This document shows, piece after piece, positions 7,356 through 44,115 of a stretch of 64,000 bases of DNA; the first letter of the stretch is position 1; every line of letters begins with the position of its first letter. Source of the stretch: Gemmatimonadaceae bacterium (GTDB lineage: Bacteria; Gemmatimonadota; Gemmatimonadetes; Gemmatimonadales; Gemmatimonadaceae); the NCBI GenBank assembly GCA_025928185.1, contig JAICKA010000003.1, positions 1-64,000 on the forward strand, written 5' to 3'. A program made the translations under genes and the position numbers. A model generated the notes under the pieces. That model saw only the letters and a list, made by a program, of their open reading frames with translations, was not told the DNA's origin and searched no databases.

Positions 7356-8335
7356 TGCCATCGGGCGAGTTCCAGCTCACCGCTCCGGATGATGCACCCC
7401 GGCTGGACGTCTTCGTGGCGTCCCAGCTCGAGCTGTCGAGAAACCACGCGGCAACGCTGATCGCGCAGGGCCACGTGCTCGTCGACGGACGGCGCGAGCG
7501 CGCCAGCTACAAGGCGCGCGCCGGCGAAACGATCGCCATCGACGTTCCGCCGCCGCCAGGGCGCGAAGTACACGGCGAGGACATTCCGCTGTCGATCGTG
7601 TACGAGGACGACGAGGTTCTCGTCGTCGACAAGGCCGCCGGAATGGTGGTGCACCCCGCGCCCGGGAACTGGTCGGGTACCCTGGCGAACGCGCTCAAGG
7701 GCCGCGGCGGGCCGCTGGCGCCGTCCGACGAAGCGGGGCGCGAGGGCATCGTGCACCGGCTGGACAAGGAGACGTCGGGACTCCTGCTCGTCGCGAAAAC
7801 CGATCGGGCTCACCGCGTGCTCGGCGCGGCGCTTCAGGCCAGGCAGATCGTGCGGCGCTACGCCGCTTTGTCCTGGGGACATCTGACCGAAGACCGGATC
7901 ACGATCGAGCGGCCCATCGCCCGCGATCCGCGAGACCGAAAGCGCATGGCAGTCGTCAGTACCGGACGGCCGGCGCGGACTGATCTCACCCGGCTTGCTC
8001 GCTTCGACTCCGCCGATCTGCTTCGTGCGCACCTGTTCACCGGACGCACGCATCAGATTCGCGTGCACCTCGCCTCGATCGGACATCCGGTCGTCGGCGA
8101 CGACACGTATGGCGGTGGCGGCGCGCGCAAGCTGATGGGACTTCCACCGCGTCGGCATTTCCTGCACGCGGCATGGCTGATCTTTCGCCACCCGGCTTCC
8201 GGGGAGCTGATCGATCTGCGGTCGCCGTTGCCGGAAGAGCTGCACCACACGCTCGTCGCGGCTGCCGGTCCCGATGTTCCGCTCGCCGACACCAACCCTC
8301 TCGAGCTCTTTGGCTTCTACCGAGTCGACGCCTGA
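7355..8335 (+). CDS. RluA-family 23S rRNA/tRNA pseudouridine synthase
   Basis: S4-like N-terminus, VDKAAGMVVHPAPGN, GIVHRLDKETSGLLLVAKT, RTHQIRVHLASIGHPVVGD. Confidence 0.95.
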   Translation: MPSGEFQLTAPDDAPRLDVFVASQLELSRNHAATLIAQGHVLVDGRRERASYKARAGETIAIDVPPPPGREVHGEDIPLSIVYEDDEVLVVDKAAGMVVHPAPGNWSGTLANALKGRGGPLAPSDEAGREGIVHRLDKETSGLLLVAKTDRAHRVLGAALQARQIVRRYAALSWGHLTEDRITIERPIARDPRDRKRMAVVSTGRPARTDLTRLARFDSADLLRAHLFTGRTHQIRVHLASIGHPVVGDDTYGGGGARKLMGLPPRRHFLHAAWLIFRHPASGELIDLRSPLPEELHHTLVAAAGPDVPLADTNPLELFGFYRVDA

Positions 8336-8753
8336 GTTGTTGACGCTCCCCACGCTGCTGTTTCGCGTGGGGACGACGCTGTACGGCTGCGACGTTCGTG
8401 ATGCCCGGGAGATCCTGCCACTGCGCGAATCCACCCGCCTGCCGGGGGCGGCCGCCTACGTGCGCGGGTTGATCAACGTTCGTGGAACGATCGTCACCGT
8501 CATCGATCTCGGCGTCCGGCTGGATTCCAGTCGGGCGCCGACGCGCACCGGGTCCATTCTGCTCGTACGCCGGCGCGACCGGCTGGTCGGCTTGATCGTC
8601 GACAGCGTAGCCGACGTGCGGCCGCTCGAGATCGACGAATCGATTGGCGCGGAAGCGGGCGGCGCCATCGTTCGCGGCCTGGCGTCGCTCGGAGGCGCGC
8701 CAGTCGTCGTGCTCGATCTCGACGCACTCATTGCGCAGGTCCTGCTCTCTTAA
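8274..8753 (+). CDS. chemotaxis protein CheW
   Basis: LLFRVGTTLYGCDVRDAREILPLRESTRLPGAAAYVRGLINVRGTIVTVIDLGVRL. Confidence 0.88.
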   Translation: MFRSPTPTLSSSLASTESTPELLTLPTLLFRVGTTLYGCDVRDAREILPLRESTRLPGAAAYVRGLINVRGTIVTVIDLGVRLDSSRAPTRTGSILLVRRRDRLVGLIVDSVADVRPLEIDESIGAEAGGAIVRGLASLGGAPVVVLDLDALIAQVLLS

Positions 8754-8765
8754 GCGAGGAATTTC

Positions 8766-9128
8766 GTGAGTCATTCGGTTCTCATCTGTGACGATGCCAT
8801 CTTCATGCGGACGATGGTCGGCGACATCCTCACCCAGGCGGGCTTCGAGATCGTGGGCGAGGCGGAAACCGGCGTCCAGGCGGTCGAACAGTATCAGCGC
8901 CTGCGACCCGATCTCGTGACGATGGACATCGTGATGCCGGACATGGGCGGCATCGACGCGGTGCGCGAGATCTGCAAGCTCGACCCCAATGCGAAAATCC
9001 TCATGTGCAGCGCGATGGGGCAGCAGGCGCTCGTCGTCGAAGCGATCCAGGCGGGAGCCAAGGACTTCGTCGTCAAGCCGTTCCAGCCCAGCCGCGTGCT
9101 CGAGGCCGTGCAGCGCGTGCTCGGATAA
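8766..9128 (+). CDS. cheY: CheY-like single-domain response regulator
   Basis: ICDDAIFMRTMVGDIL, LVTMDIVMPDMGGIDAV, FVVKPFQPSRV. Confidence 0.95.
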   Translation: MSHSVLICDDAIFMRTMVGDILTQAGFEIVGEAETGVQAVEQYQRLRPDLVTMDIVMPDMGGIDAVREICKLDPNAKILMCSAMGQQALVVEAIQAGAKDFVVKPFQPSRVLEAVQRVLG

Positions 9129-14435: not shown

Positions 14436-15380
14436 ATGGCGATCGAAGGCCCGCTTCGCGAGCTTGGCATCCACGACGTCTTCCAGCTGCTCGATCTGAG
14501 CCGGAAGACGGGGCTGCTGCGCGTCTCATCCAAGCTCCGCGAGGACGAGGGCGTCGTGTTCTTCGACAGCGGCAGCGTCGTCCAGGCTGCGATTCGCAGC
14601 AAGATGATGCCGATCGAGGCCGTCCTGCTGCAGGCCGGCCGCGTGAGCGAGGCCGACATCGAGGAGGCGCGCGCCCGACAGACGAACGGGCGTGCATCGC
14701 ACCACATCGTCGATCTGCTCGTCGAAATCGGTGCGATCACCACGCGCGAGCTCGAGCGTCAGCTGCGCTTGCAGCTCGAGAGCGTGGTATTCGAGCTCAT
14801 GTCGTGGCGCGAGGGATTCTTTTCGTTCGAGGAACGCGAGCGCGCGGAGCTCCCGCGCGATTCGCGCATCGCCGTCTCGACCGAATCGCTGCTCATGGAG
14901 GGCGCCCGGCGCATCGACGAATGGTCTCGCATCGCGGATCTGATCCCCGACGTCACCGTGATTCCCGAGCTCGCGCCGGTGGAAGCGGATCGCGACGGGG
15001 CGATGCTCGATCTGTTGCCGCACGAATGGCAGGTGTTGACGATGATCGACGGCGATCGCGACCTGCGCGCGATCGCGACGGCGCTGTCGCGCGACGAGTT
15101 CGAGACCGCGAAGATCGCCTACGGTCTGGCGACGACCGGCATCATCAGCGTGCATCCGGCGCCGCCGCCGCCCACGGCACAACCGCAACCGCTCACGCCG
15201 CGCGCGCATCTCGATCTCGCATTCGCCGCGGCTCGCCATGGCGATCTCGTGTCCGCGCGCGCGGGATGGGAGGCGTTCCTCCGGCTGGCACCGCACGATG
15301 GAGCCGCCGCGCGAGCGCGCGAGGCGCTCGAGGCGACGATTCGTCTGCAGCACGCGATCGAGGCGCACGTCAATGAGTGA
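14436..15380 (+). CDS. DUF4388 (PatA N-terminal-like) domain protein
   Basis: MAIEGPLRELGIHDVFQLLDLSRKTGLLRVSS...EGVVFFDSGSVVQA; paralogous to 19648-21267. Confidence 0.82.
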   Translation: MAIEGPLRELGIHDVFQLLDLSRKTGLLRVSSKLREDEGVVFFDSGSVVQAAIRSKMMPIEAVLLQAGRVSEADIEEARARQTNGRASHHIVDLLVEIGAITTRELERQLRLQLESVVFELMSWREGFFSFEERERAELPRDSRIAVSTESLLMEGARRIDEWSRIADLIPDVTVIPELAPVEADRDGAMLDLLPHEWQVLTMIDGDRDLRAIATALSRDEFETAKIAYGLATTGIISVHPAPPPPTAQPQPLTPRAHLDLAFAAARHGDLVSARAGWEAFLRLAPHDGAAARAREALEATIRLQHAIEAHVNE

Positions 15381-16182
15381 CGACATCCACCGCTGGAGCG
15401 ACGAGCTCGCGCGTGATCCGTCGAGTCTCGTCTTCCTGCAGCTCGCCGAGGCGCTTCGTCGCCAGGGACAGCTCGGGGTCGCACTCAAGATTGCGCTGCG
15501 CGGCGTCGAGCGGCACGTGAAGCACGTCGATGCGCACGATCTGGTCGCGCGGATCGCCGTGGATCAACGTGATTTCGATCGCGCCGTTGCCGCATGGGAG
15601 ACGGTGCTCATGCTGCAGCCGGAGCACGTCGGCGCCATGAAGGGACTCGGGTACGTGCATTTCCAGCAGCAGCGATTCGACGACGCGGAGCGGTATCTGA
15701 GCCAGGCCGCCGAAGTGGGCGGAGGTGCGGACGTGACCGCCGCACTCGAGGCCGTGCGGCGTTCGTCGGGCGGTGTGCCGATCGCCGAAGTCGAAGGCGT
15801 GCCGTTGTCCGACGCGCACCGCTTGTTCGCCGATCTGTTGATCGACGAAGGACAGACCGCGATGCTGCTCGACGGAAATGGCTACGTGCTCGCTGGATTG
15901 TACCTCGACTCGACGGGCCACGATGTGGCGCAGGAGATCGGCGCGCAGCTGAGCGGCATCTCGGACGAAGTCGTGCGGTCCACCCGGCATCTCGACCTGG
16001 GAGACTGGCGCTCGATCGTGTTCGAGACGAACGCCGCGGTCATCGCGATGGCGCCGGCCACGGACAGCAGCCTGCTCGTCGTCGCCGCCTCGCGGGCCAC
16101 GCCACTCGGCCTGCTTCGGCGGCTGCTGGACCGGTGCGCCGAGCGGGCCGCGGGCTGGTTGAGCGACGGAGGCGGCCGGTGA
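15373..16182 (+). CDS. TPR protein with C-terminal Roadblock/LC7-like domain
   Basis: N-terminal TPR helices; C-terminal 'TAMLLDGNGYVLAGLYLDSTGHDVAQEIGAQLSGISDEV' typical of Roadblock folds; start refined to ATG 15373. Confidence 0.75.
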   Translation: MSDDIHRWSDELARDPSSLVFLQLAEALRRQGQLGVALKIALRGVERHVKHVDAHDLVARIAVDQRDFDRAVAAWETVLMLQPEHVGAMKGLGYVHFQQQRFDDAERYLSQAAEVGGGADVTAALEAVRRSSGGVPIAEVEGVPLSDAHRLFADLLIDEGQTAMLLDGNGYVLAGLYLDSTGHDVAQEIGAQLSGISDEVVRSTRHLDLGDWRSIVFETNAAVIAMAPATDSSLLVVAASRATPLGLLRRLLDRCAERAAGWLSDGGGR

Positions 16183-16529
16183 GCGCGCCATTCGGGACCG
16201 TACTCGAAACATTGACCCGCCAGCGTGGCGTGCGGGCGAGCTTGATCGTCTCTGAGAGCGACGGACTGGTGGTCGATTCCAATCTCCGGTTCGGCCAGGA
16301 CGGCGCACGCGTGGCGGCGCTGGCCGCGTCGATGTACCGCAAGGCGCGGTTGTCGGCGGGGGCAGCCCACCTCGGCGCCGTCGCCTTTCTGCAACTGGAC
16401 GCCGAGCGTGGACGCATCTGCGCGGTCGGCGGCCGCAGTGATCTCGTGATTGTCGTCGTCTCCGATGCGTCGGCCAACGTGGGATTGATACGCGTGGAAC
16501 TGCTCAAGGCACTGGAGTCGCTCGCATGA
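16179..16529 (+). CDS. Roadblock/LC7 domain protein (MglB-like candidate)
   Basis: VLETLTRQRGVRASLIVSESDGLVVDSNLRFGQDGARVAALAASMYRKA; GTGA overlap start. Confidence 0.78.
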   Translation: MSAPFGTVLETLTRQRGVRASLIVSESDGLVVDSNLRFGQDGARVAALAASMYRKARLSAGAAHLGAVAFLQLDAERGRICAVGGRSDLVIVVVSDASANVGLIRVELLKALESLA

Positions 16530-17008
16530 TCATCGCGTCCGTCGAACCGTGGATCGAAGCGCCGCTGCGCCGGTACGTCGATGACGCCCGGGCGCGCATC
16601 GCGCTGCTGCTGCATCCGTCCGGGCAGGTCGTGGCCCAGGCGGGATTCACGCGCGCGGTGGACGTGATGACGGCGTGCGCGCTGGCGGCGGCAGTCCACG
16701 CGACGGCGGGCGAGCTTGGACGCCAGCTCGATGGACGCCCGTTCCGGGCGCTGCACCACGCCGGCGTCGAGCAACAGTTTCACCTCGCTGTGACCGAGAC
16801 CGCGCGTGGGGCCTACATTTGTCTCACCGTCTTCGATCAGGAGAGCTCACTCGGGCTCGTCCAGATGTATTTCGAAGAGTTATGCCGCGAGCTCGCCGCG
16901 GCGGCGCCGCCGCTGGCCAGTCTTCGCGCACCGGCGCTCGGTCTGGATTTCGAGCGCGATCTGAACGCGAATCTCGCCGCGATGTTTGGGCGAGAGGAGA
17001 GAGGATAG
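16526..17008 (+). CDS. Roadblock/LC7-like protein
   Basis: size, position, and 'RIALLLHPSGQVVAQAGFTRAVDVMTACALAAAVHATAGELGRQL'; ATGA overlap with the upstream gene. Confidence 0.62.
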   Translation: MIIASVEPWIEAPLRRYVDDARARIALLLHPSGQVVAQAGFTRAVDVMTACALAAAVHATAGELGRQLDGRPFRALHHAGVEQQFHLAVTETARGAYICLTVFDQESSLGLVQMYFEELCRELAAAAPPLASLRAPALGLDFERDLNANLAAMFGREERG

Positions 17009-17095: not shown

Positions 17096-17713
17096 GTGTC
17101 CCTCGTCAACTACGCCACCCGCGAGATTACGTGCAAGATCGTCTACTACGGACCTGGTCGGTCCGGAAAGACGACGAACTTGCATTACATCTACGGGCAG
17201 GTGCCGGAGGACCGGCGAGGGAAGATGGTGTCGCTCGCCACCCAGACGGATCGCACGCTGTTCTTCGATTTTCTGCCGCTCGACCTCGGCACGATCTCCG
17301 GCTTCACTACGAAGTTCCAGCTCTACACCGTGCCGGGCCAGGTGTATTACCAGACGACGCGCAAGCTCGTGCTGCAGGGAACCGACGGCGTCGTGTTCGT
17401 GGCCGACAGCCAGGCGCGCCAACTCGAGGAGAACATCGAGAGCTTCCAGGACCTGCACGCCAATCTCGCCGAGCAGGGCGTCGATGCTCGCACCGTGCCG
17501 CTCGTGATCCAGTACAACAAGCAGGACCTGCCGCAGGATCTGATTCTCAGCGCCCACGAATTGTCGGAGGCGCTCAACTTCCGCGGCGTTCCCGAATTCT
17601 CGGCCGATGCGCTGCATGGTCCAGGCGTGTTCGAGACCCTGCGCGCGATCTCGGAGCTCGTGCTCAAGCGGCTGAGCGCGGGCGCGGCGCCGAGCGCGGC
17701 GGCGGTGCGCTGA
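17096..17713 (+). CDS. MglA-like small Ras-family GTPase
   Basis: YYGPGRSGKTTNLHYIYGQVP, LATQTDRTLFFDFLPLDLG, YTVPGQVYYQTTRKLVLQGTDGVVFVADSQ, IQYNKQDLP; GTG start. Confidence 0.95.
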   Translation: MSLVNYATREITCKIVYYGPGRSGKTTNLHYIYGQVPEDRRGKMVSLATQTDRTLFFDFLPLDLGTISGFTTKFQLYTVPGQVYYQTTRKLVLQGTDGVVFVADSQARQLEENIESFQDLHANLAEQGVDARTVPLVIQYNKQDLPQDLILSAHELSEALNFRGVPEFSADALHGPGVFETLRAISELVLKRLSAGAAPSAAAVR

Positions 17714-17716
17714 GCC

Positions 17717-19633
17717 ATGCACGTCGAAACGCGACTCCGGTTCGACAACTTCGTCGTCGGCTCGGCCAACCGCCTGGCCGTCGCCGCGGCGCATGCGGTC
17801 GCCGAAGCGCCGGGCACCGTGTACAACCCGCTGTTCATGTACAGCAGCTCCGGCCTGGGGAAAACGCACCTGATGAGCGCGATCGGCAATCAGGTGATGG
17901 TCAAGCACAAGGGACTCGTCGTCGATTTCGTGACGCTCGACGATTTCGTCGAGGAGCTGCACGCGGCGATCGCCGCCGGCGAGAGCGAGAAGTTCAAGGA
18001 GCGCTACCTGCAGGTTGGCGTGCTGCTGATCGACGACATGCAGTTCCTCACCGGCCATCGCGAAACGCAGTCGGAGCTGCTGCGCATCTTCAACGCGCTC
18101 ACCGCCGACGGCCGTCAGATCGTGATGACGAGCGACCGCCCGCCGTCCGAGATCGCAGATGTCGACGCACGTCTGCTGACGCGGCTCGCCGGCGGCCTGA
18201 TCGTCGACATCAGCGCGCCGGATTACGAAACGCGCATGGCCATTCTCCGAGCGAAATGCGAAGAGCGCGGCGTTCGCTTTCGCGCCGGCGTCGTCGACGA
18301 AGTGGGGCGGCTCGAATTCAAGAACGTGCGCGAGCTGCAGGGTGCGCTCAACCGCCTGATCGCGTTCCAGACGCTCGGCGGCGAACAGATCGAGCCCGAG
18401 GCCGTCCTGACGATTCTCGGCGACCTCGCCGAGCAGCAGGTGCAGCCGGCGCGACCACGGCCGAGCGGCGAGTTTCAGAGTTTCCTCACGGACATCGCCT
18501 CGGCGGTGGCGCAGCACGTGGAGCAGTGGCAGACGCGGCTCACCGAGGCGATTGCCTACTGGAACAGCGAAGGCTATCGCACCGGCGCGCTGGAGCGTGT
18601 GCTGAACGGCTCCGCGGCGCCGGCGAGCGTCGAGAGCGTGCTACGCGCCTTCGAGGCCGACGTCACCAAGCTTCGTGAGCTCGAGCAGCAGTTGCTGCGG
18701 CTCGACAAGGAGCTGGCGGCGCATCCATCGTTTCACGATCCCGACCGACTGCGCGAGGCGGAGCAGTTGCTGGAGCGTGCACTGCGCACGGCGTCGCCGC
18801 CACCGGGGCCGTCGGCGGCGTTCACGCGCGCGGGTTTCGAGGTGAGCGGGAGCAACCAGCTCGCCGTCCGTGCCGCGGACGCAATCGTGAGCGTTCCCGC
18901 CAGCCGATACAATCCGCTGTTCATTCATGGGCCGAGCGGCGTCGGCAAGACGCACCTGCTCAACGCGGTTGGCAACGGCCTCATGGAAGCGACGAACGGC
19001 GGCGTCGCATGCGTGCCCGCGCAGTTGTTCGTCGACGAGTTGATCGCCGCGCTTCAGGAAGGCACGGTGGACCGCTGGCGCGCGCGCTACCGGGCCGCCA
19101 ACGCGCTCCTGCTCGACGACGTGCAGTTCGTCGCCGGCAAGGAGCGTACGCAGGAAGAGCTGTTTCACGTCTTCAACGCGCTGCACTCCGATGGCAAGCA
19201 GCTCGTGTTCGCCAGCGATCGCGCTCCCCGCGAGCTGACCGGCCTGGAAGATCGCCTCCGCTCGAGGTTCGAGGGCGGGCTGGTGGTCGAGATGCAGTCG
19301 CCGGATCGCGCGCTGCGCGAACGCCTGTATGCACGCTTTCTCCGCGACTCCGGCATCGAACCCACGGGCGAGATGGTGAGCTATCTCGCCGAGCGAGCCG
19401 TGTCGAGCGTGCGGGAAGTGATCGGCACCGTGAATCGTGTCGTCGCCTCCGCGGAAGTCGCGGCCGTTCCCGTGACGCTCGGCTTCATGCGCGCGCAGCT
19501 CGAGCCCGATGAAGGCGCGACGTCGCGCGCCGCAGCGATGCGTACGGCGGCGGACACGTACTTCCTCGACGCCGAGAAGATCGTCTGGCACTGGCCGGAT
19601 GCGTCCGCGCGGCTGATCGAGGAACCGCGATGA
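17717..19633 (+). CDS. tandem DnaA-type AAA+ ATPase protein (two AAA+ modules, no recognisable DnaA domain IV)
   Basis: module 1: SSSGLGKTHLMSAIGN / LLIDDMQFLTGHRETQSELLRIFNAL; module 2: GPSGVGKTHLLNAVGN / LLLDDVQFVAGKERTQEELFHVFNALHSDGKQLVFASDRAPREL / RLRSRFEGGLVVEMQSPD. Confidence 0.9.
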   Translation: MHVETRLRFDNFVVGSANRLAVAAAHAVAEAPGTVYNPLFMYSSSGLGKTHLMSAIGNQVMVKHKGLVVDFVTLDDFVEELHAAIAAGESEKFKERYLQVGVLLIDDMQFLTGHRETQSELLRIFNALTADGRQIVMTSDRPPSEIADVDARLLTRLAGGLIVDISAPDYETRMAILRAKCEERGVRFRAGVVDEVGRLEFKNVRELQGALNRLIAFQTLGGEQIEPEAVLTILGDLAEQQVQPARPRPSGEFQSFLTDIASAVAQHVEQWQTRLTEAIAYWNSEGYRTGALERVLNGSAAPASVESVLRAFEADVTKLRELEQQLLRLDKELAAHPSFHDPDRLREAEQLLERALRTASPPPGPSAAFTRAGFEVSGSNQLAVRAADAIVSVPASRYNPLFIHGPSGVGKTHLLNAVGNGLMEATNGGVACVPAQLFVDELIAALQEGTVDRWRARYRAANALLLDDVQFVAGKERTQEELFHVFNALHSDGKQLVFASDRAPRELTGLEDRLRSRFEGGLVVEMQSPDRALRERLYARFLRDSGIEPTGEMVSYLAERAVSSVREVIGTVNRVVASAEVAAVPVTLGFMRAQLEPDEGATSRAAAMRTAADTYFLDAEKIVWHWPDASARLIEEPR

Positions 19634-19647
19634 CGAGGCGCGTCTAA

Positions 19648-21267
19648 ATGGCCATTCGCGGAAGTCTCAAGGAGGCGAGCCTCCCCGACGTGCTCCAGCT
19701 CCTGTCGATGGGCAAGAAGACGGGCTGCTTGAGCGTCACGCACCGGAACAGCTTCGGCTACATCTACTTCGACAAGGGCCGCATCTGCTACGCATCGATC
19801 GTCAATCGGCGCGACCGTCTTGGTGACCGGCTGCTGAAGAGCGGCGCCATCACGCAGGAGCAGCTCGACGCCGGCATTGCGCTGCAGGACCGCCGGCGCG
19901 ACAAGCGCCTCGGCGAGCTGCTCGTGGAGCAGGGCGCGCTGACGCTCGAGCAGTTGCACAACGCCATTCACGTGCAGATTCAGGAAGCGGTCTATTTCCT
20001 GTTCACGTGGACGGCCGGCACGTTCAACTTCGAGGCCGACGTTGCGCCCGATGCGCACGACTACGTGGTGTCGATCAATCCGGAGTCGCTGCTGCTCGAG
20101 GGCGCGCGGCGCGTGGACGAGTGGGAGCTGATCGAAAAGAAGATCGCCAGCTTCGATCTCGTGTTCGAGATGAACCGCGGCAAGGTGATGTCGAGCGACG
20201 TGGAGCTGACGGCGGAGCAGCGCGTCGTGCTCGATCTCGTCGACGGCTCGCGCGACGTGCAGGCGATCATCGACGCCTCGGGGCTGGTCGAGTTCGAGGT
20301 CGGCAAGGCGCTGTACGGTCTGCTCAACGCGAGCTTCATCCATCGCATCGGCAAGTCGGCGGGCCCGGCCCAGCCGCTCGCCGAGGGCCGGGTGGAGGAG
20401 CATCGGAACCTCGGCGTCGCGTTTTATAAAACCAGCATGCTCGAGGAAGCGCTCCGGGAGTTCCGGCGCGTGCTCGAGCTGCGGGCGACCGACACCGTGG
20501 CGCGATTCTACGTGGGCCTGGTGCTCGCACGCCAGCAGAAATGGGAAGAGGCCGTGACGGCACTCACCGAGGCCTCGGCGCAACCGGGGGCCAAGGTCGC
20601 GGTGTTTCACAATCTCGCATACGTGCTCGAGCAGCAGAACCGCCACACCGACGCCAAGGTCGCGCTCGAGGAGGCCGTGCGGCGCGGCGGCGCGAGCGAT
20701 CCGCGCGTGCAGACCTCGCTCGGTGTCGTGTCGCTGCTCGTCGGCGATCTGCCGGCGGCGGACGCCGCGCTGCTCGCGGCGCGACCGCTGTTCGGCACGC
20801 GTGCGCCCACGCCGGCGTGGTATCACTACATGGCGCTCGCGGCGGCGCTGCTCGGCGACGTGAATCGCGCGACGGCGGTGCTGCAGGAAGGCGTCGCGGC
20901 CTATCCGCATGCACCGGCGCTGCTCAACAACCTCGCCGCGGTCCTGGAGCGCACGGGCGATTTCGACGGGGCCCGCGGCATCGCCGACCAGGGCGTGCAC
21001 GAAGACGCCGGTCTGCCGCAGTTGCACAAGAATCTCGGCGATCTGCACTATCGCGCCGGCCGGTACGATGAAGCGCTCGAGGCGTACCTGCGCGCGACCA
21101 AGGCGAATCCGGAGCTCGGCGCCGACGTCTACCTCAAGCTCGGCAACATCCGCCTGCGCCGGCAGGAGCGCGACGACGCGGTGCGCTGCTGGGAACGCGC
21201 ACTCGAGCTCGACCCGGACAACGCGCTCGTCCGCACCAATCTGGAATCCGTTCGCCAGGTTACCTGA
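19648..21267 (+). CDS. DUF4388 domain plus TPR protein
   Basis: MAIRGSLKEASLPDVLQLLSMGKKTGCLSVTHRNSFGYIYFDKGRICYA followed by TPR repeats. Confidence 0.87.
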   Translation: MAIRGSLKEASLPDVLQLLSMGKKTGCLSVTHRNSFGYIYFDKGRICYASIVNRRDRLGDRLLKSGAITQEQLDAGIALQDRRRDKRLGELLVEQGALTLEQLHNAIHVQIQEAVYFLFTWTAGTFNFEADVAPDAHDYVVSINPESLLLEGARRVDEWELIEKKIASFDLVFEMNRGKVMSSDVELTAEQRVVLDLVDGSRDVQAIIDASGLVEFEVGKALYGLLNASFIHRIGKSAGPAQPLAEGRVEEHRNLGVAFYKTSMLEEALREFRRVLELRATDTVARFYVGLVLARQQKWEEAVTALTEASAQPGAKVAVFHNLAYVLEQQNRHTDAKVALEEAVRRGGASDPRVQTSLGVVSLLVGDLPAADAALLAARPLFGTRAPTPAWYHYMALAAALLGDVNRATAVLQEGVAAYPHAPALLNNLAAVLERTGDFDGARGIADQGVHEDAGLPQLHKNLGDLHYRAGRYDEALEAYLRATKANPELGADVYLKLGNIRLRRQERDDAVRCWERALELDPDNALVRTNLESVRQVT

Positions 21268-28628: not shown

Positions 28629-29525
28629 CTATTCGCCCTCCTCGCCGGGCAGATGCGCGACGTGCACCCACAAATCGCGCGCGCGGGCGTGATACGTCAG
28701 CCGTCGCGCGTTCGAGATCTCGCCGTCGACGTTGACCGCGATCGGTTCGCGCCCTTCGATCGTGACCGACTTCACCTGCACATAGTGCACGCCTTCCTCG
28801 CCGACGTGCTCGCCGCGCTTGAGCCGCAGCAGTCGCCGCGCGAAATCGCCGCGCGACATCGCTTCGATCACGCACAGGTCGATCAATCCGTCGGTTACCG
28901 AAGCCATCGGCGTCATGAGCGTACCGCCGCCGGTGGCGCGCGCCAGACCGATGGCGAACAGCAGAAAGTCGCCGGTATACGAAAACCCGTCGGCCGTGAA
29001 GCGCGCGTATGTCGGGCGGAAGTCGGCGAACTTGCGCATGCCGCTGATCGCGTACGCCACAGGGCCAAGCGATTCCTTCGCCTCGGCCGGCGTTTCGGCA
29101 GTCGCCTCCGCGCCCACACCTCCGGTCGAGACGTTCAGAAATCGTCGCCCGTTCAACGCGCAGGTATCCAGTCGCCTGGGCTTGCGTTGGAGGATAACAT
29201 CCATGGCATGATCGGCATCCGCCGGTATGCCCACCTGTCGCGCAAAATCGTTCGCCGTTCCCAGCGGGATGATGCCGAGCGGCACGTCGTACCCATCGAG
29301 CCCATTCACCACTTCGTTGACCGTGCCGTCGCCCCCCGCCGCGGCGACGACATCCACGCCGCGCCGTGCCGCATCGGTCGCGAGCGCGGCCGCTTCGCCG
29401 CTTTCGAACGTGATGTGGACTTCGACCAAATGGCCCTTGTCGCGCACCCAGTTCACGAGGTGGCGCAGATCGGGTCGGTCAGCGCGCGCGCCGTGGACGA
29501 TGAGCGCGATGTGCCTGGATTTCAT
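28629..29525 (-). CDS. YegS/diacylglycerol kinase-like lipid kinase
   Basis: AAGGDGTVNEVVNGL, GIIPLGTANDFARQVGIP, FLNVSTGGVGAEAT. Confidence 0.93.
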   Translation of the reverse strand: MKSRHIALIVHGARADRPDLRHLVNWVRDKGHLVEVHITFESGEAAALATDAARRGVDVVAAAGGDGTVNEVVNGLDGYDVPLGIIPLGTANDFARQVGIPADADHAMDVILQRKPRRLDTCALNGRRFLNVSTGGVGAEATAETPAEAKESLGPVAYAISGMRKFADFRPTYARFTADGFSYTGDFLLFAIGLARATGGGTLMTPMASVTDGLIDLCVIEAMSRGDFARRLLRLKRGEHVGEEGVHYVQVKSVTIEGREPIAVNVDGEISNARRLTYHARARDLWVHVAHLPGEEGE

Positions 29526-30453
29526 GCCGTCGACTAGCGCATATCACGCGCCTGTGCTCGCCAGCGAAGTGGTGGCGCTGCTGGCTGGAGCGCGTCACGT
29601 GCTCGACTGCACGCTGGGCGGCGGCGGGCACGCGGTCGCGTTGCTCGAGTCAGGCGCGGAGCGCGTGTTCGGCATCGATCGCGACCCCGAGGCGCTCGCC
29701 ACGGCGACGGCGCGGCTCGCGCCCTATGCCGATGCGGGCCGGTTCGCGTCCGCGCAAGCCAACTACGCCGATGCCGCCGAGCTGCCGGCGCTGGAAGGCC
29801 TGCGGTTCGACGGCGTGTTGCTCGACCTCGGCATCTCGTCGCACCAGGTGGACGCCGCCGCCCGCGGCTTCACCTTTCGCCCCGGTGCGCCGCTCGACAT
29901 GCGCATGGGCGCTGACGCCACGAACGATGCGGCGAGCCTGCTGAACGGCGAGGATGAGCAAACGCTCACGACGCTGTTTCGCGAGTACGGCGACGAGCCG
30001 AAGGGCGGCCGTCTGGCGCGTGAAATCGTTCGCCGGCGGGGCGTACGGCCGTTCGAGACGAGCGACGATCTGGTCGGCGCGATCCGCGCCGTGCTCGGGC
30101 CGCGGAGCGGGGCGGGCGACTTCGCGCGGTTGTTCCAGGCCGTGCGCATCGCGGTGAACGACGAGCTGCCCGGACTGACGCGAGCCCTGCCCGCGTTGCG
30201 CGACATCCTCTCGCCCGGCGGAGTCATGGTGGTGATCGCCTATCACTCGGGGGAGGACCGGATCGTCAAGCACGCATTCCGCGAGTGGAGCGCCGAGTGC
30301 GTCTGCCCGCCGAAGCAGCCGGTGTGTACCTGCCGCGGCCGGTCGCTGGGGCGCACGCTCACCAGGCGCGCCGTGACCGCCTCCGCGCTGGAAATCGAAC
30401 AGAACCCCCGCGCGCGCAGTGCGCGGTTGCGAGCATGGCAAAGCGCCGCGTAA
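29524..30453 (+). CDS. rsmH: 16S rRNA m4C1402 methyltransferase RsmH
   Basis: HAPVLASEVVALL, DCTLGGGGHAVALLE, GVLLDLGISSHQVD, FRPGAPLDMRMG, VIAYHSGEDRIVKHAFR; start refined to ATG 29524. Confidence 0.96.
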   Translation: MPSTSAYHAPVLASEVVALLAGARHVLDCTLGGGGHAVALLESGAERVFGIDRDPEALATATARLAPYADAGRFASAQANYADAAELPALEGLRFDGVLLDLGISSHQVDAAARGFTFRPGAPLDMRMGADATNDAASLLNGEDEQTLTTLFREYGDEPKGGRLAREIVRRRGVRPFETSDDLVGAIRAVLGPRSGAGDFARLFQAVRIAVNDELPGLTRALPALRDILSPGGVMVVIAYHSGEDRIVKHAFREWSAECVCPPKQPVCTCRGRSLGRTLTRRAVTASALEIEQNPRARSARLRAWQSAA

Positions 30454-30764
30454 CCGCGGCGCGCCGCCGCTCGCTGATCGCGCTCGTGCTCGTTGGTTTC
30501 GTCCTGGTGACTACGGGCGTCATAGCACGGAGAGTGGTCGGTGTTCGCCAGCAGAGCGAGATCCGCAAGCTGCAGGCGCAGCGCGACGCGCTCGACGCCA
30601 AGCGGGTGCGACTGGAAAGCGCGATCCGCGATGCGTCGAGCCGCGAACGGCTGGAGCCGATCGCCGAGCAACGGCTCAACATGCACATCCCGACTCCGGA
30701 GCAGCAGATTTTTCTGACCCACACGCGCGGCGCGCGGCCGCAACCGGCGCGTGATTCGCTCTAG
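30435..30764 (+). CDS. ftsL: FtsL-like cell division protein
   Basis: short basic N-terminus, single TM, coiled coil, position between rsmH and ftsI. Confidence 0.75.
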   Translation: MAKRRVTAARRRSLIALVLVGFVLVTTGVIARRVVGVRQQSEIRKLQAQRDALDAKRVRLESAIRDASSRERLEPIAEQRLNMHIPTPEQQIFLTHTRGARPQPARDSL

Positions 30765-32778
30765 CCGCATCGGGCTGGCACACGCCACACTCGCGCTGTT
30801 CGCGATCGCGATCATCGCCAAGGCTGCGGACGTCCAGCTGGTCCACGGTGCGACGTGGCGCGCCCGCGCGTCGCGGCAGCAGTCCGCCGAGCGAACGGTA
30901 CCGGCGCCCCGCGGCGAGATCCTGGACGCCACGCACCGCGTGCTGGCGCAGAGCCGCGAGATGGTGCGCCTGGAGATTTCGCCCCGAGACGTGAACGAGC
31001 CCGGTCGGCTGCGGCGCGCGTTGGCCGCGCTGCACGTCGACCAGTCGCTCATCGCGCGTGCGCTGAATCCGAAGAGCCATTACCTCGTGCTGCCCGGGCG
31101 GTTTCTGGCCGTGGACGCCGCGCCGGCCATGGCGGTGCTCGGTGTCCACTCGTTCGCCACGATCATGCGCGGCTACGCGGCGTCGGACGGCGCGCAAGCC
31201 ATCATCGGACATGTCGACGCGAACAATCGTCCGGTGGACGGCATCGAGCTGTCGCTCGACGCGGTGCTCCGCGGCACGCCGGGCAGCGCGACGATTTTCA
31301 AGGATTCGCACGGCCAGGGCCGCGAGTCGCCGACCGCGCCCGGCACGCCGCCCAGGCGCGGCGACGACGTCGTGCTCACGATCAATGCGGATCTCCAGGA
31401 GATCGCCGAGCGCGCGCTAGGCGACGCGGTGGAACGGATGGGTGCCGAGGGCGGCGACATCGTCATTCTCGATCCGCACACCGGCGAGATTCTGGCGCTG
31501 GCCAGCCGTCGCCTCGATCCGCACGTGGCCGCGACGACGGCGCTGAGCGAGCCGTTCGAGCCGGGTTCCACGGCCAAGCCGTTCATTGCGGCCGGGTTGC
31601 TCGAGCGCGGGCTGGTGCAACCCACGGACTCGGTGGATACCGGCAACGGCGTGTTCGACATCAACGGCCGATTGATTCACGACGAGCATCGCGTCGGGCG
31701 CGCGCCGCTGGCCGACGTGCTGCGCTGGTCGAGCAACATCGGTATCGTGAAATTCGCCGAGCGGCTCACGCCACAGCAGGAATACGAAACGTTCCGCGAT
31801 TTCGGCTTCGGCATGCCGACGGGTGTGGACTACCCCACGGAATCGTCTGGAAGCTTGCGGCCGCCGGGTGTGTGGTCGAAGCAGTCGGCCAATTCGATGG
31901 CAATGGGTTACGAGATCTCGGTCACGCCGCTGCAGCTGGCGGCGGCGTACGCGACGTTCGCCAATGGCGGCAAGCTCATCGAGCCGGCGCTGGTCAAGGC
32001 GATTGTGGCCCCGGACGGCTCCATTCGGTATCGGCACACGCCGCGAGTGGTCCGACAGGTCATGCCCACCGCCGTCGCCGACCGCGTCCGCCACATGCTG
32101 CTCGACGTCGTGGACGAAGGCACCGCACTGCAGGCGGCACTCGACAACTATCTGCTCGCCGGCAAGACAGGTACGCCGCGGAGCACGGTGCGCGGTCATT
32201 ACGTCGCCGGACGCTACAACCCGAACTTCGTCGGGTTGTTTCCCGGCGATGCTCCGCAATACGTGATCGTGGTCAAGCTCGAAGCGCCTCAGAGCTCGAT
32301 CTTCGCCGCACGGACGGCCGCGCCGGTCACGAAGGCCATCCTGCAAGCGGCCATCGCGGCGCGCGATGCCGCACTCGATCGTGGCAAGCTCGCGTCGAGC
32401 ATGTCGGCGGCGCGCAGCGATTCGTTGCATCATGAGGTGACGCAGGCCGCCCACCCGATGCGTCTGGCCACCGCCGACCGCGAGACTACGACGGTGACTC
32501 GGGACAGCGCGGTCGACCATGTGGCCGCAGCCCCGTACGTGATCACGCTGCCGGCTCGTTTGGCCGGACCGCCGGCCCATGTGCCGCGCGCGGTGCCGGA
32601 CATTCGCGGACTCGACCTGCGCGACGCGGTGCGTTCGTTGCACAGTGCTGGCTTCCGCGTTCAGCTCGCGCACGACCGCCGAGCTGGCGACGCGGCCGAT
32701 GCCGTGACTCTGACGGAGCCGGCCGCCGGCGAAATGGCGCCGACCGGAACGCTCGTTCGACTGCTCATCGACTACTGA
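30751..32778 (+). CDS. ftsI: penicillin-binding transpeptidase (FtsI/SpoVD-like) with C-terminal PASTA domain
   Basis: EPGSTAKPF (SxxK), WSSNIG (SxN), AGKTGTPR (KTG), C-terminal VPDIRGLDLRDAVRSLHSAGF. Confidence 0.95.
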   Translation: MIRSSRIGLAHATLALFAIAIIAKAADVQLVHGATWRARASRQQSAERTVPAPRGEILDATHRVLAQSREMVRLEISPRDVNEPGRLRRALAALHVDQSLIARALNPKSHYLVLPGRFLAVDAAPAMAVLGVHSFATIMRGYAASDGAQAIIGHVDANNRPVDGIELSLDAVLRGTPGSATIFKDSHGQGRESPTAPGTPPRRGDDVVLTINADLQEIAERALGDAVERMGAEGGDIVILDPHTGEILALASRRLDPHVAATTALSEPFEPGSTAKPFIAAGLLERGLVQPTDSVDTGNGVFDINGRLIHDEHRVGRAPLADVLRWSSNIGIVKFAERLTPQQEYETFRDFGFGMPTGVDYPTESSGSLRPPGVWSKQSANSMAMGYEISVTPLQLAAAYATFANGGKLIEPALVKAIVAPDGSIRYRHTPRVVRQVMPTAVADRVRHMLLDVVDEGTALQAALDNYLLAGKTGTPRSTVRGHYVAGRYNPNFVGLFPGDAPQYVIVVKLEAPQSSIFAARTAAPVTKAILQAAIAARDAALDRGKLASSMSAARSDSLHHEVTQAAHPMRLATADRETTTVTRDSAVDHVAAAPYVITLPARLAGPPAHVPRAVPDIRGLDLRDAVRSLHSAGFRVQLAHDRRAGDAADAVTLTEPAAGEMAPTGTLVRLLIDY

Positions 32779-34254
32779 ATGCACGCTAATCTCGACTTGA
32801 TCGCGCGCGCGCTGGACGAGGCCGGGCTGCTCGTCGAACGGCACGGCGCGTTGCCGACGATTGTGTCCGGGATCACCGATGACAGCCGCGCGGTCGAACA
32901 GAACGGATTGTTCGTCGCCGTCCGCGGCACCGAGCGCGACGGACACGATTACCTCGACAGCGCGGCCGCCGCCGGAGCGGCAGCGGCGATCGTGCAGGAC
33001 GCGGCGCGCACGCAGCTGCCGTCACTCGTGGTGAACGACGGTCGTCGCGCCGCGGCAGTCGCGGCTGCCGCCGCGTACGAATTTCCGGCGCGCGATCTTC
33101 AGATCGTCGGCGTCACGGGCACCAACGGCAAGACGACGACGGTCAACATGCTGCGCCACCTGCTCGACGAACGTGGCTCGCGCAGTGCGTCGATCGGCAC
33201 GCTCGGCGTGCTGCTCGGCAGCCGCGGCCAGCCGATCGAAGGTGGAAGCGGTCTCACGACGCCGGGGCCGGTCGAGTTGCAGCGCGTCTTTCGCGAGCTG
33301 CACGATTCCGGAGTGCGGCGCATCGCGATGGAGGTGTCGTCGCACTCGCTCGATCAGCACCGCATCGAGGGCGTGCTGTTCGACGCGGTGACGTTCACCA
33401 ACTTCACACGCGACCATCTGGATTATCACAAGACGATGGAGCGCTACTTTGCCGCGAAAGCGAAGCTGCTCGACTATCTCCTGCCGCACGGGACCGTGCT
33501 CACCAATCTCGACGATCAGGCGTGGCTCGCGCTGCGCACCGAGCGCCGGCGCGTGACGTTCAGCCAGCGGGTGCCCACCGCGGAGGTGCACGCCGAGAAC
33601 ATCCGCTACGGTCCGCGCGGCAGCGAGTGGGATCTGGTGCTCGGGCCCGACCGCACGTCGGTGCAGCTGCCGCTCATCGGCGATTTCAATGTCATCAACG
33701 CGCTCGGTGCAGCGGCTACCGCGTACGCGCTCGGCGTGAGCGCCGACCGAATCGGCAAGCGCCTGTCGTCGATGCCGCAGGTGCCGGGTCGGCTGGAGGT
33801 GCTCCGCGAATCGCCAACGGTGCTGCGCGATTACGCGCACACGCCTGACGCGCTGTCTCGCGCACTGGCCGCCATCCGACCGTTCACGCCAGGGCGCATC
33901 ATCCTGGTCTTCGGCTGCGGAGGCGACCGCGATCGCGGCAAGCGGCCGGAGATGGGCGCGATCGCGTCGAAGCAGGCCGACCTCGCGATCGTGACGAGCG
34001 ACAATCCGCGCACCGAAGATCCGGAGCGCATCCTCGATGACATCGAAGCCGGCATGACGACGCCGCACGAGCGGATCGAAGACCGGCGCGCGGCGATCGC
34101 GCGCGCGCTCGAGCTCGCGGCCGCCGACGACGTCGTTCTGCTCGCCGGCAAGGGCCATGAGACCTATCAGGTGCGAGGCACCACGCGATTGCCATTCGAT
34201 GAGAAAATCGTGGTGACGGAACTCTCGACACACGCCGGCGCGGAGCGCGCGTGA
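32779..34254 (+). CDS. murE: UDP-MurNAc-tripeptide synthetase
   Basis: GVTGTNGKTTTVNML, HSLDQHRIEGV, TSDNPRTEDP (DNPR, meso-DAP-type). Confidence 0.96.
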   Translation: MHANLDLIARALDEAGLLVERHGALPTIVSGITDDSRAVEQNGLFVAVRGTERDGHDYLDSAAAAGAAAAIVQDAARTQLPSLVVNDGRRAAAVAAAAAYEFPARDLQIVGVTGTNGKTTTVNMLRHLLDERGSRSASIGTLGVLLGSRGQPIEGGSGLTTPGPVELQRVFRELHDSGVRRIAMEVSSHSLDQHRIEGVLFDAVTFTNFTRDHLDYHKTMERYFAAKAKLLDYLLPHGTVLTNLDDQAWLALRTERRRVTFSQRVPTAEVHAENIRYGPRGSEWDLVLGPDRTSVQLPLIGDFNVINALGAAATAYALGVSADRIGKRLSSMPQVPGRLEVLRESPTVLRDYAHTPDALSRALAAIRPFTPGRIILVFGCGGDRDRGKRPEMGAIASKQADLAIVTSDNPRTEDPERILDDIEAGMTTPHERIEDRRAAIARALELAAADDVVLLAGKGHETYQVRGTTRLPFDEKIVVTELSTHAGAERA

Positions 34255-35648
34255 GCACGCCGACGCCCGCGGTCGCGAAAACCACCTTCTGGACGCTCGA
34301 CCGCGTCGGCACCGCGCTGGCGCCGCTGGCGGACGTCAATCTGCCGCGCGGCAGCGATGTGTTCGGCCGCGTGTGGACCGACACCCGTACGATCGAGAAA
34401 GGCGACCTGTTCGTCGCGTTGGTCGGCGAGCGGTTCGATGCCCACGACTTCATCGCCGATGCTGTAGCGCGTGGCGCTGCGGGCGTGGTCGTGTCGCGCC
34501 CCGGCGCGGGGCAGGGAAGCGGCGTCCCGGTATTCCAGGTGCGCGATACGCTCGTCGCACTTGGCGCGCTCGGCACGATGCGCCGGCGCGTCTGGAACAA
34601 GCCCGTGGTCGGCGTAGTTGGCACCAACGGAAAGACGAGCACCAAGGAGCTGCTGCGCGCCGCCCTCGGCAGCGTCTTCGAGGTGCATGCCACCAGCGGC
34701 AATCTGAACAATCTCATCGGCGTGCCGCTCACGCTGCTCGCGATTCCGGACGCCGCCGATGTCGCAGTCGTGGAGATGGGTACCAATCAGCCGGGCGAAG
34801 TGCCGCGGCTCCGCGCCATCGTGCAGCCGGACATCACCGTCGTCACGTCGGTCGCCGAAGAGCATCTGGAAGGGCTGGGTGATCTTGCCGGCGTATTGCG
34901 CGAAGAGCTGGCGGCCGCGGACGGCGTTCCCGTCGCGGTGGTGCCGGCGTCGCAACCGGAGGTGATCGAGGCGGCGCGCGCACGTGCGTCGCGCGTCGTT
35001 GCCGCCGGTCTCGAGGGCGGCGATCTGCACCCCGCTGCCTGGTCGGTGGAACGGGACGGCCGTGGACGATTGGTCCTCACCGACGTCGAGATCACGCTGC
35101 CGTTGCGAGGCGTGCACAACTTGCGCAATGCGATGCTTGCGTTGGCGGTTGCCACCGAGCTCGGCGTTTCGCACGCGGATGCGCGGCGCGGGCTGGAGGC
35201 CATGCCAGTGCCTCCAATGCGCGTGAACTGGGAGCAGCACGGATCGACGACGTTGATCAACGACGCTTACAACTCGAATCCCGGATCAGCGCGCGCGGCG
35301 CTGGAGCTGCTGCAGCATGCCGGGACTGGACGTCAGCGGGTGGCGGTGCTCGGGACGATGCTGGAGCTCGGACCACAGACGCCGCGACTGCACGACGACG
35401 TCGCACGCGATGCGCTGAATGGCGGGATCGAGCTGGTCGCGGCGATCGGCGAGTTTGCCGCCGCGCTCTCGCGTATCGCTCCGAACGATCCGCGCGTCAT
35501 TACGGCGGACGACGTCGAGAGCCTGTGGACACGTCTGTCGTCGCGTCTTGCTCCCGACGCCGTTATCCTCCTCAAGGGTTCGCGTGGCATGCGCCTCGAG
35601 CGATTGGTTGCACCAATCGCCGAGTGGGCGCAGCGCACGTCCTCGTGA
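34251..35648 (+). CDS. murF: UDP-MurNAc-tripeptide--D-Ala-D-Ala ligase
   Basis: GVVGTNGKTSTKELLRAALG, NDAYNSNPGSARAALE. Confidence 0.95.
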   Translation: MSTPTPAVAKTTFWTLDRVGTALAPLADVNLPRGSDVFGRVWTDTRTIEKGDLFVALVGERFDAHDFIADAVARGAAGVVVSRPGAGQGSGVPVFQVRDTLVALGALGTMRRRVWNKPVVGVVGTNGKTSTKELLRAALGSVFEVHATSGNLNNLIGVPLTLLAIPDAADVAVVEMGTNQPGEVPRLRAIVQPDITVVTSVAEEHLEGLGDLAGVLREELAAADGVPVAVVPASQPEVIEAARARASRVVAAGLEGGDLHPAAWSVERDGRGRLVLTDVEITLPLRGVHNLRNAMLALAVATELGVSHADARRGLEAMPVPPMRVNWEQHGSTTLINDAYNSNPGSARAALELLQHAGTGRQRVAVLGTMLELGPQTPRLHDDVARDALNGGIELVAAIGEFAAALSRIAPNDPRVITADDVESLWTRLSSRLAPDAVILLKGSRGMRLERLVAPIAEWAQRTSS

Positions 35649-35699
35649 GGCACGGCCACACTTCCTGCTCCCGCCACCCGCTCCCTCGCCCCCGCGTAC

Positions 35700-36848
35700 G
35701 TGCTTCATTATTTCCTCGTTCCGCTCGCCAGGCACTTTCGCGTCCTGAACATCTTCACGTACATCTCGTTCCGCGCGGTGGGCGCGGCGGTCACCTCGCT
35801 GCTGCTGTCGTTCATCGTGGGGCCGATCATTCTGCGGGCGCTGGCGCGTCAGTCCGTGCACCAGGTGGTGCGCGAGGGAACGCCGGAATCGCACGCCGGC
35901 AAAGGCTCCACGCCGACGATGGGCGGACTGATCATCCTGTTCAGCTCTCTCATCTCGGTGGTGCTCTGGGGACGGTTCAGTCTCAGCCATCCGTATCTGC
36001 TGGTCGCGATCTTCATCACGCTCTGGATGGGCGCGATCGGGCTGCTCGATGACTATCTCAAGCTCCAGCAGAAGAAGCGCGGCGAAAAGAATCGAGGACT
36101 GATCGAGCGATACAAGCTGGCCGGCCAGGTCGTCGCCGGGCTCGCGCTCGGCTGGTACCTGTGGCAGCACCCGCTGTCGCCGAATCTGTCGGGTGCGTCG
36201 ACGACGCTGCCGTTCTTCAAGTACGTGATCGTCGATTGGGCGCTCGGCTGGGCGTGGGTCTATCCGCTGTTTACGACGTTCGTGCTCACGGGCACCAGCA
36301 ACGCCGTGAACATCACCGACGGGTTGGACGGTCTCGCGGCTGGGTTGCTCGCGATCTCGTTCGGAACGTTCGCGATCTTCTCGTACATCATCGGACGCGT
36401 CGACTACAGCCGGTTCCTGCTCGTGTTCTATCTCCAGGATTCCGGCGAGCTCACCGTCTTCTGTCTTGCCATGGTCGGCGCGCTGATCGGATTTCTCTGG
36501 TTCAACACGCACCCGGCGCAGGTGTTCATGGGCGACACCGGCGCGCTGGCGCTGGGTGGTGCGCTCGGAGCCGTTGCGATTCTCCTCAAGTCCGAGTTCG
36601 TGCTGGCGATCGTCGGCGCGGTGTTCGTGGCCGAAATGATGTCGGTGATTCTGCAGCGCTTCGTCTTCAAGTATCGCCGCAGCCGGCGAGGACTGGCGTA
36701 TGCGCAGGCGCATCGAGTATTCCGACGAGCGCCGCTGCATCACCATTTCGAGGAGCTCGGCTGGAAGGAAACGCAGGTGGTGGTGCGCTTCTGGATTCTC
36801 GGAATTCTCTGCGCGTTCTTCGCGCTCAGCACGCTCAAGCTCCGCTAG
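35700..36848 (+). CDS. mraY: phospho-MurNAc-pentapeptide transferase
   Basis: GTPESHAGKGSTPTMGG, GLLDDYLK, NAVNITDGLDGLAAG, HHHFEELGWKETQVV. Confidence 0.97.
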   Translation: MLHYFLVPLARHFRVLNIFTYISFRAVGAAVTSLLLSFIVGPIILRALARQSVHQVVREGTPESHAGKGSTPTMGGLIILFSSLISVVLWGRFSLSHPYLLVAIFITLWMGAIGLLDDYLKLQQKKRGEKNRGLIERYKLAGQVVAGLALGWYLWQHPLSPNLSGASTTLPFFKYVIVDWALGWAWVYPLFTTFVLTGTSNAVNITDGLDGLAAGLLAISFGTFAIFSYIIGRVDYSRFLLVFYLQDSGELTVFCLAMVGALIGFLWFNTHPAQVFMGDTGALALGGALGAVAILLKSEFVLAIVGAVFVAEMMSVILQRFVFKYRRSRRGLAYAQAHRVFRRAPLHHHFEELGWKETQVVVRFWILGILCAFFALSTLKLR

Positions 36849-36850
36849 CC

Positions 36851-38251
36851 ATGTCGCACGTGTCGGACCTCGCGATGCAGGCGGATTGGGTACGTGGTGA
36901 GATTGCCGTCGTCGGCCTGGCGCGCAGCGGGCGCGCCGCGGCCCGGCTCATGGCGCGCGGCGGACTCTCAGTGTATGCGTCGGACAGCGGCAGCTCGCCC
37001 GAGCTCGAGGCCACGGCCGCGGAGCTGCGCGCCGACGACGTCGGCGTCGAGATCGGCGGGCACGACCTCGAGCGCATCGGGCGCGCATCGCTCGTCGTGG
37101 CGAGCCCCGGAGTTCCGCCCAACGCACCACCGTTCGTGGCCGCGCGTGCCGCCGGTGTGCAGATCGTGAGTGAAATTGAAATCGGGCTGCGCTTTCTGCC
37201 GCGGCTCAAGTACATCGCGATCACCGGCACGAACGGCAAGACGACCACCACCGCGTTGACGGGCCATCTGCTACGCAGCCTGGGCCGTCGCGCGGCGACC
37301 GCGGGCAACATCGGCACGCCGCTCACCGAGCTGGCGCTGGCGAAGGCACCGCCGGAGTGGGTCGCGCTGGAGGTGTCGTCCTTTCAGCTGCACGACACGC
37401 CGAGCATCGACCCGCGCGTGGGCGTGCTGACGAACCTGTCGGCCAACCATCTCGATCGGTACGCGAGCGTGGCCGAGTACTATGGCGACAAGGCGCTGAT
37501 GTTCCAGAATGCCACGCCGGCGTCCAACTGGGTGACGAACGCCGACGACGCGGACGTGCAGGCCATGACGCGCGCGATTGCCGGATTGCAGTGTCGCTTT
37601 TCCGTGCGCGAGCGCTCCGACGCATTTCTCGACCGCGACAGCGAACAGCTCGTGGTGCTCGGGCATCCGCTGCTGCCACGCCACGCACTGCCGCTACTCG
37701 GCGACCACAACGTGGCCAATGCGCTCACGGCGTCGCTCGCCGTCATGCTCGCCGAGGTGGCGCATCGGACGCCGATGGCGCTCAAGATGATGGCCGGCGC
37801 GCTGTCGACGTTCAACGCGCTCGAGCACCGCATCGAAACGGTCGGGGAGTTCGACGGCGTCACGTGGATCAACGATTCGAAATCCACCAACGTGGCATCG
37901 ACGCTGGTCGCGTTGCGCGGCATGTCCCGGCCGACGGTGCTCCTGCTCGGTGGCAAACACAAAGGTGAGCCGTACACGGATCTGGGGCCCGAGCTGGCTC
38001 GAACCGGCCGCGCCGTCATTGCCTACGGTGAAGCGGCGGGTCTGATCGAAGCGGATCTCGAAAACGTGGTGCCGATCACGCGACTCGGCTCATCGTTCGA
38101 CGATGTCATGGCCACGGCGCGCCGCCTGGCGCAACCGGGCGACGTGGTGCTGCTCTCGCCCGCCTGCTCGAGCTACGACATGTTCGATAACTACGAGCAT
38201 CGCGGCGAGGTGTTCAAGCAGCTCGCCGCCGCCGGCGCAACCCGACGGTGA
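36851..38251 (+). CDS. murD: UDP-MurNAc-L-Ala--D-Glu ligase
   Basis: VVGLARSGRAAARLMA, ITGTNGKTTTTALTGHLL, WINDSKSTNVASTLVAL; start refined to ATG 36851. Confidence 0.96.
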   Translation: MSHVSDLAMQADWVRGEIAVVGLARSGRAAARLMARGGLSVYASDSGSSPELEATAAELRADDVGVEIGGHDLERIGRASLVVASPGVPPNAPPFVAARAAGVQIVSEIEIGLRFLPRLKYIAITGTNGKTTTTALTGHLLRSLGRRAATAGNIGTPLTELALAKAPPEWVALEVSSFQLHDTPSIDPRVGVLTNLSANHLDRYASVAEYYGDKALMFQNATPASNWVTNADDADVQAMTRAIAGLQCRFSVRERSDAFLDRDSEQLVVLGHPLLPRHALPLLGDHNVANALTASLAVMLAEVAHRTPMALKMMAGALSTFNALEHRIETVGEFDGVTWINDSKSTNVASTLVALRGMSRPTVLLLGGKHKGEPYTDLGPELARTGRAVIAYGEAAGLIEADLENVVPITRLGSSFDDVMATARRLAQPGDVVLLSPACSSYDMFDNYEHRGEVFKQLAAAGATRR

Positions 38252-38258
38252 GTGTCTG

Positions 38259-39449: not shown

Positions 39450-39477
39450 CGACACTCGCAACGGGAGCAGCAGCCGC

Positions 39478-40581: not shown

Positions 40582-40603
40582 TTCTCGTTCATTGCGCAGC
40601 GCG

Positions 40604-40624
40604 ACACGATCGCGATGATCGTGT
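40604..40624. repeat. inverted repeat in the murG-murC spacer
   Basis: ACACGATC-GCGAT-GATCGTGT, 8-bp perfect arms. Confidence 0.6.
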
Positions 40625-40667
40625 TCGGCGTCTTGTGTCCGGCGAAAAATTCCCGAACTTGGAGCCC

Positions 40668-43995: not shown

Positions 43996-44029
43996 ACCGC
44001 ATCAAAAAGCTGCTCCGCGCCCCATGAGC

Positions 44030-44038
44030 TGTGGATAA
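44030..44038 (-). promoter_or_regulatory. perfect consensus DnaA box (TTATCCACA on minus strand)
   Basis: TGTGGATAA on + strand, in the 199-bp ftsA-ftsZ spacer. Confidence 0.6.
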
Positions 44039-44115
44039 GTCGCACGAAAATTCCGTGTGATTCTTTCCGCGCTGCATCGTCTGAAAATTGGGGTAGTTGG
44101 ATCGCCAGAAAGCAT

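Follow-up and report, generated by a model that had tools for sequence, protein, structure and literature searches.

Why does a gene for a protein with two DnaA-type AAA+ modules lie inside a chemosensory/MglA operon, and is that protein an initiator at all? Few replication proteins are as conserved as DnaA, and the gene in question was noticed in the window, the whole 64,000-nucleotide stretch of Gemmatimonadaceae DNA analyzed here (Table 1). In our preferred reading, to which we give a probability of about 0.55, its product would be an adaptor for the adjacent DUF4388-TPR protein, equipped with a DnaA-type pseudo-dimer ATP switch and tuning chemosensory/MglA output. This reading was drawn from sequence comparison.

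Table 1. Features of the tandem gene and its upstream and downstream neighbors in the window
Feature	Position	Strand	Remark
Tandem DnaA-type AAA+ gene, 638 aa	17717..19633	+	one frame; 102 tandem homologues
AAA+ module 1, conserved ATP site, residues ~4-240	17726..18436	+	Bac_DnaA 5-164
Module 1 Walker A YSSSGLGKTHL, residues 42-52	17840..17872	+	
Module 1 Walker B VLLIDDMQFL, residues 102-111	18020..18049	+	
Module 1 arginine-finger segment ARLLTRLAGGL, residues 151-161	18167..18199	+	
Helical linker, residues 250-362	18464..18802	+	used as family marker in searches
Linker helix 1 SGEFQSFLTDIASAVAQHVEQW	18464..18529	+	one of two segments retained by the 60-75-aa reduced forms
AAA+ module 2, residues ~365-600	18809..19516	+	
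Module 2 Walker A HGPSGVGKTHL, residues 404-414	18926..18958	+	
Module 2 Walker B ALLLDDVQFV, residues 463-472	19103..19132	+	
Module 2 arginine-finger segment DRLRSRFEGGL, residues 512-522	19250..19282	+	
C-terminal tail, 23 aa, residues 616-638	19562..19630	+	kept by all forms including reduced
DUF4388 (PATAN-type) + TPR protein	19648..21267	+	presumed partner; PF14332 E 1.6e-38
MglA-type small GTPase	17096..17713	+	by resemblance; Pfam matches Arf/Ras-type
Roadblock/MglB-like protein	16526..17008	+	weak matches, below cut-offs
Second Roadblock-like ORF	16179..16529	+	by resemblance only
TPR-Roadblock fusion protein	15370..16182	+	family match
Second DUF4388 protein	14436..15380	+	family match

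Domain content and distribution of the tandem protein

Pfam found Bac_DnaA (PF00308) twice in the 638-aa protein (E 1.2e-107). The DnaA model TIGR00362 also matched twice, and its best stretch ended short of domain IV. The AlphaFold model (mean pLDDT 87.5, pTM 0.49) contained two domain-III AAA+ folds plus lids, and its top PDB match was B. subtilis DnaA domain III with a TM of 0.94 to the target. Thus the original prediction of two DnaA-type AAA+ modules in one chain was borne out, with all of the quoted motifs present. The arginine that it had placed in the module 1 "TRL" is conserved as well (R in 53 of 63 rows from families f1-f3).

Neither domain IV nor a GGRDHTTV-like signature was found in the 638-aa protein, as judged from the extent of the TIGR00362 match, the translation and the ~38 residues left C-terminal to module 2, which are largely of low confidence in the AlphaFold model. 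An ordinary four-domain DnaA with the signature GGRDHSTV is encoded elsewhere in the same genome (G000:C225). The tandem protein is not the genome's replication initiator, which agrees with what had been predicted. Its linker of ~113 aa is helical; it matched no Pfam family and no convincing known family, and profile matches in the PDB had E values of 0.23 or worse.

A pseudogene or a frameshift fusion of two genes, the latter raised along with the prediction, was rejected because the tandem is found in a single frame in 102 homologues and is under purifying selection, with pN/pS of 0.25-0.28 across the whole gene when close relatives were compared. The homologue set, in which the outer families were chosen for diversity and which is therefore non-random, held 129 proteins: 102 with both modules, 23 with module 1 only, 3 with no module and 1 cut by a contig end, some of the one-module assignments (L094, L109, L160) being contig or frame artefacts. 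Most of 59 relatives carry full or near-full tandem forms.

The linker profile matched 237 of 395 Gemmatimonadota genomes, whereas 47 genomes of other phyla gave no match. In a further 297 genomes, from the phylum to which L204 (a "Deltaproteobacteria" MAG) belongs, there was a single weak partial match (E 7.5e-5). Among the matches listed, all clear relatives belong to Gemmatimonadota. The weak partial match, outside this phylum, is L255 (G610:C87:3836-4048) and lies within a 1073-aa frame. No account of a tandem DnaA-type protein was found in the literature searched. A role in a defense system was also considered and rejected, as PADLOC gave weak generic matches only.

The locus, its constant neighbor and the reduced forms

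In loci from the order to which the window belongs, the typical operon has the arrangement rluD-CheW-CheY-CheA-CheC-TPR-DUF4388-TPR/Roadblock-Roadblock-Roadblock-MglA-tandem gene-DUF4388/TPR-CheR-CheD-CheB-CheW-CheW-TPR, with local losses. DUF4388 is a domain that we take to be PATAN. The TPR-Roadblock fusion of the window (15370-16182) is an unusual pairing within the operon.

A DUF4388-TPR gene lies immediately downstream of the tandem gene in 98 of the 99 loci with enough flank, at a median gap of 3 nt. The sole exception is L094, whose frame is broken. On the other side, mglA directly precedes the tandem gene in 44/46 f1-f3 loci and, f5 excepted, in most outer loci; no mglA match was found at locus L036. 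The f5 locus reads rluD-tandem gene-DUF4388-protease-like gene; MglA, Roadblock and Che genes are not adjacent to it, and MglA is present elsewhere in f5 genomes. It had been proposed that the protein is coupled to MglA, Roadblock and Che proteins and that a survey should ask if they always co-occur. They are the usual neighbors, but the tie is not obligatory, since each can be missing, as in f5. A conserved neighbor does exist, and it is the DUF4388-TPR gene.

In the other families, loci with sufficient flank are bordered by rluD on one side and by rsmH with the dcw cluster on the other. Directly downstream of the operon, the window encodes RsmH-like, PBP transpeptidase, Mur ligase, MurG-type, FtsA and FtsZ proteins (29500-45400). 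For the suggested link from cell-cycle state to surface behavior, the single supporting observation is that the locus adjoins this division/cell-wall (dcw) cluster. A second MglA-type GTPase gene is found in the window's genome at L250:8993-9673 (G000:C86), adjoining a Roadblock-like gene.

In L067 and L081 the linker and tail are retained and the AAA+ modules are gone. In genera g5 and g7, an ORF of ~70 aa made of linker helix 1 and the tail fills the gap between MglA and DUF4388, with its stop codon at or beside the DUF4388 start. A profile built from five reduced ORFs matched 20 genomes, these five included, at E <= 3.1e-7 in genera g5, g7, g8 and g30. In all four genera the peptide is ~60-75 aa long, holds only linker helix 1 and the tail, and is encoded directly upstream of the DUF4388 gene. 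Six further reduced loci, fetched after the pattern had been noticed, have the DUF4388 gene adjacent in 6/6. Pairwise pN/pS values of reduced forms were 0.35 (L243/L245), 0.43 (L243/L246), 0.31 (L245/L246) and 0.23 (L244/L247), computed on short sequences with a few codons ahead of the likely start included. These values moderately support the reduced ORFs as coding genes.

Several lineages can do without both AAA+ modules, so the ATPase resembles an accessory attached to a short adaptor core. What is always retained is helix 1, the tail and the neighboring DUF4388-TPR gene, which suggests that the first two form the core of an adaptor for the product of the third. It is conceivable, and we hold this more tentatively than the preferred reading, that the DnaA ATP switch works here outside replication as a detachable tandem head on a short adaptor peptide controlling a PATAN-TPR motility regulator, and that some lineages have discarded the ATPase but kept the peptide core.

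Alternatively, the tandem protein might be an MglA effector or a polar-localization ATPase that binds MglA-GTP directly and organizes the Roadblock/Che proteins at the pole. The position of mglA directly upstream at most loci fits this idea. So do the 23 genomes of f1-f3 in which the linker was not matched: seven of them carry operon-type MglA, and when five of these seven loci were fetched, a reduced form stood between MglA and DUF4388 in 5/5. However, full-length f5 protein persists with no mglA at its locus, mglA is absent from five of the six further reduced loci, and L036 too is without an mglA match. We consider this alternative unlikely.

ATP sites, the arginine finger and a possible switch

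Across all groups, no aligned sequence lacked the Walker A lysine or the first Walker B aspartate of module 1, except for two gap rows; in f5 this lysine and the Walker B aspartates were kept in 36/36. In the f5 module 2, only 2 of 34 rows have the Walker A lysine and 1 of 34 has the first Walker B aspartate, yet both arginines of its finger segment remain in 34/34. The module 2 finger arginine was retained in 57/61 rows of f1-f3, 8/8 of f4 and 34/34 of f5. In f4, module 2 lacks its lid and sensor 2 (absent in 8/8) and still has the finger. The single-module families f6 and f9 are not alike: the finger arginine and sensor 2 were found in 6/12 and 2/12 rows of f6, and both were found in 6/6 rows of f9.

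Since module 2 of f5 retains the finger after loss of the ATP site, module 2 would most likely donate the arginine finger to the ATP of module 1. This pattern, a comparative one, is what would be expected of the putative intramolecular AAA+ pseudo-dimer of the original prediction and lends it support. The model of an f5 protein (56 rows) had a pTM of 0.70, compared with 0.49 for the window protein, in which the orientation of the modules is uncertain; the higher value is consistent with modules placed more definitely relative to each other. As the ATP sites are intact in both modules of the window protein, ATP may bind to each of them, and assembly into higher oligomers is possible. The module 2 finger segment might also be kept for folding or for another contact and not for catalysis.

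Another use of the modules would be binding of ssDNA or other single-stranded nucleic acid, as in DnaA domain III. In most f1-f3 sequences, module 2 has the K-x-R of the ssDNA-contact segment of DnaA (K in 45/61, R in 51/61). Module 1 has glutamate at the R position in 55/63 f1-f3 rows, though, and ordinary Gemmatimonadota DnaA is likewise not conserved at this position. Both modules are also missing from the reduced forms, and we regard nucleic acid binding as very improbable.

In the preferred adaptor reading, a DnaA paralogue would have lost domains I, II and IV, been duplicated inside one gene and been mounted on an adaptor with a core consisting of linker helix 1 plus the C-terminal tail. 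This core would most likely dock onto the DUF4388 (PATAN)-TPR protein encoded just downstream, although adjacency of two genes is no proof that their products bind. With ATP in module 1 and the arginine finger from module 2, a putative ATPase cycle of binding and hydrolysis would open and close the module pair, and this may change the presentation of the linker and tail or the oligomerization of the complex. In genomes with the full operon, the tandem protein would tune chemosensory/MglA output, probably onto type IV pili.

Pili are suggested as the output because PATAN regulators bind PilB and MglA acts through a TPR protein. In Synechocystis, the pilus motor PilB is bound by PATAN regulators, according to PMC10519157, which cites Han 2022 for this. 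In Myxococcus, MglA recruits the TPR protein SgmX for pili (PMC11580455). PilT-family genes were found in 50 of the 50 genomes tested, 49 of them above the cut-off; being universal there, they do not discriminate.

Origin of the tandem and comparison with known proteins

The main tree was built from 75 domain-III rows, with 18 rows omitted, including Hda and several long branches. Module 2 formed a single clade (100/100), and module 1 together with the single-module forms formed another (100/100). The branch that separates all modules from ordinary DnaA had 93/83 and was not starred. An earlier quick tree of 93 rows grouped the sequences alike but with weaker support (90 for all modules together). 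The simplest reading of these trees is that the tandem arose once, when a DnaA-derived module was duplicated within its gene ahead of the radiation of the class, and that module 2 was subsequently lost in f6. It was probably lost in f9 as well, whose placement is weak.

The modules resemble DnaA (TIGR00362; PF00308) in the domain-III AAA+ fold, the motifs, the SRF-type arginine finger and the sensor 2 arginine. In contrast to DnaA, the tandem protein has two modules per chain without domains I, II and IV, a new linker and tail, and a motility-type operon. It shares with Hda (TIGR03420) a DnaA-type AAA+ region without domain IV, whereas Hda has a single module. The Hda model gave 169.9 bits with the whole protein against a cut-off of 194.8, and 90.5 and 83.0 bits with the separate modules. 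Hda sat apart on a long branch of the quick tree, and inspection by eye showed no clamp-binding motif in the N-terminal sequence MHVETRLRFDNF.

These comparisons bear on a replication regulator, in which the modules would co-oligomerize with DnaA in an Hda-like or sponge manner and link surface behavior to the cell cycle. The DnaA ancestry of the modules in the tree and the adjoining dcw cluster are in line with it, and among DnaA-type proteins that lack domain IV, Hda is the best known. Against it, the Hda score is under the cut-off, no replication gene was seen in the neighborhood, and the core persists beside the DUF4388 gene after both modules are lost. We think such a regulator improbable.

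Systems built on PATAN/DUF4388 regulators and on MglA-SgmX polarity share with this locus the DUF4388-TPR, MglA, Roadblock and chemosensory operon partners, but no DnaA-type AAA+ component was found described for them in the literature searched. Orc1-2, an archaeal non-initiator Orc1, is likewise an initiator-family AAA+ protein put to another task; it differs in keeping its DNA-binding domain and acting on gene expression (PMC9738581).

A clear and widespread non-initiator descendant of DnaA with two ATPase modules per chain would show that the DnaA switch can be reused. The tandem protein would also offer a natural one-chain DnaA-type dimer for testing the finger-to-ATP step, and the small conserved peptide is likely a key part of surface-behavior control in Gemmatimonadota. 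A second case of a DnaA-type AAA+ module joined to TPR was seen in L177 from Candidatus Sumerlaeota, where a 1752-aa open frame has a long TPR-like array and a C-terminal DnaA domain-III module without domain IV (DnaA match at 8136-8867).
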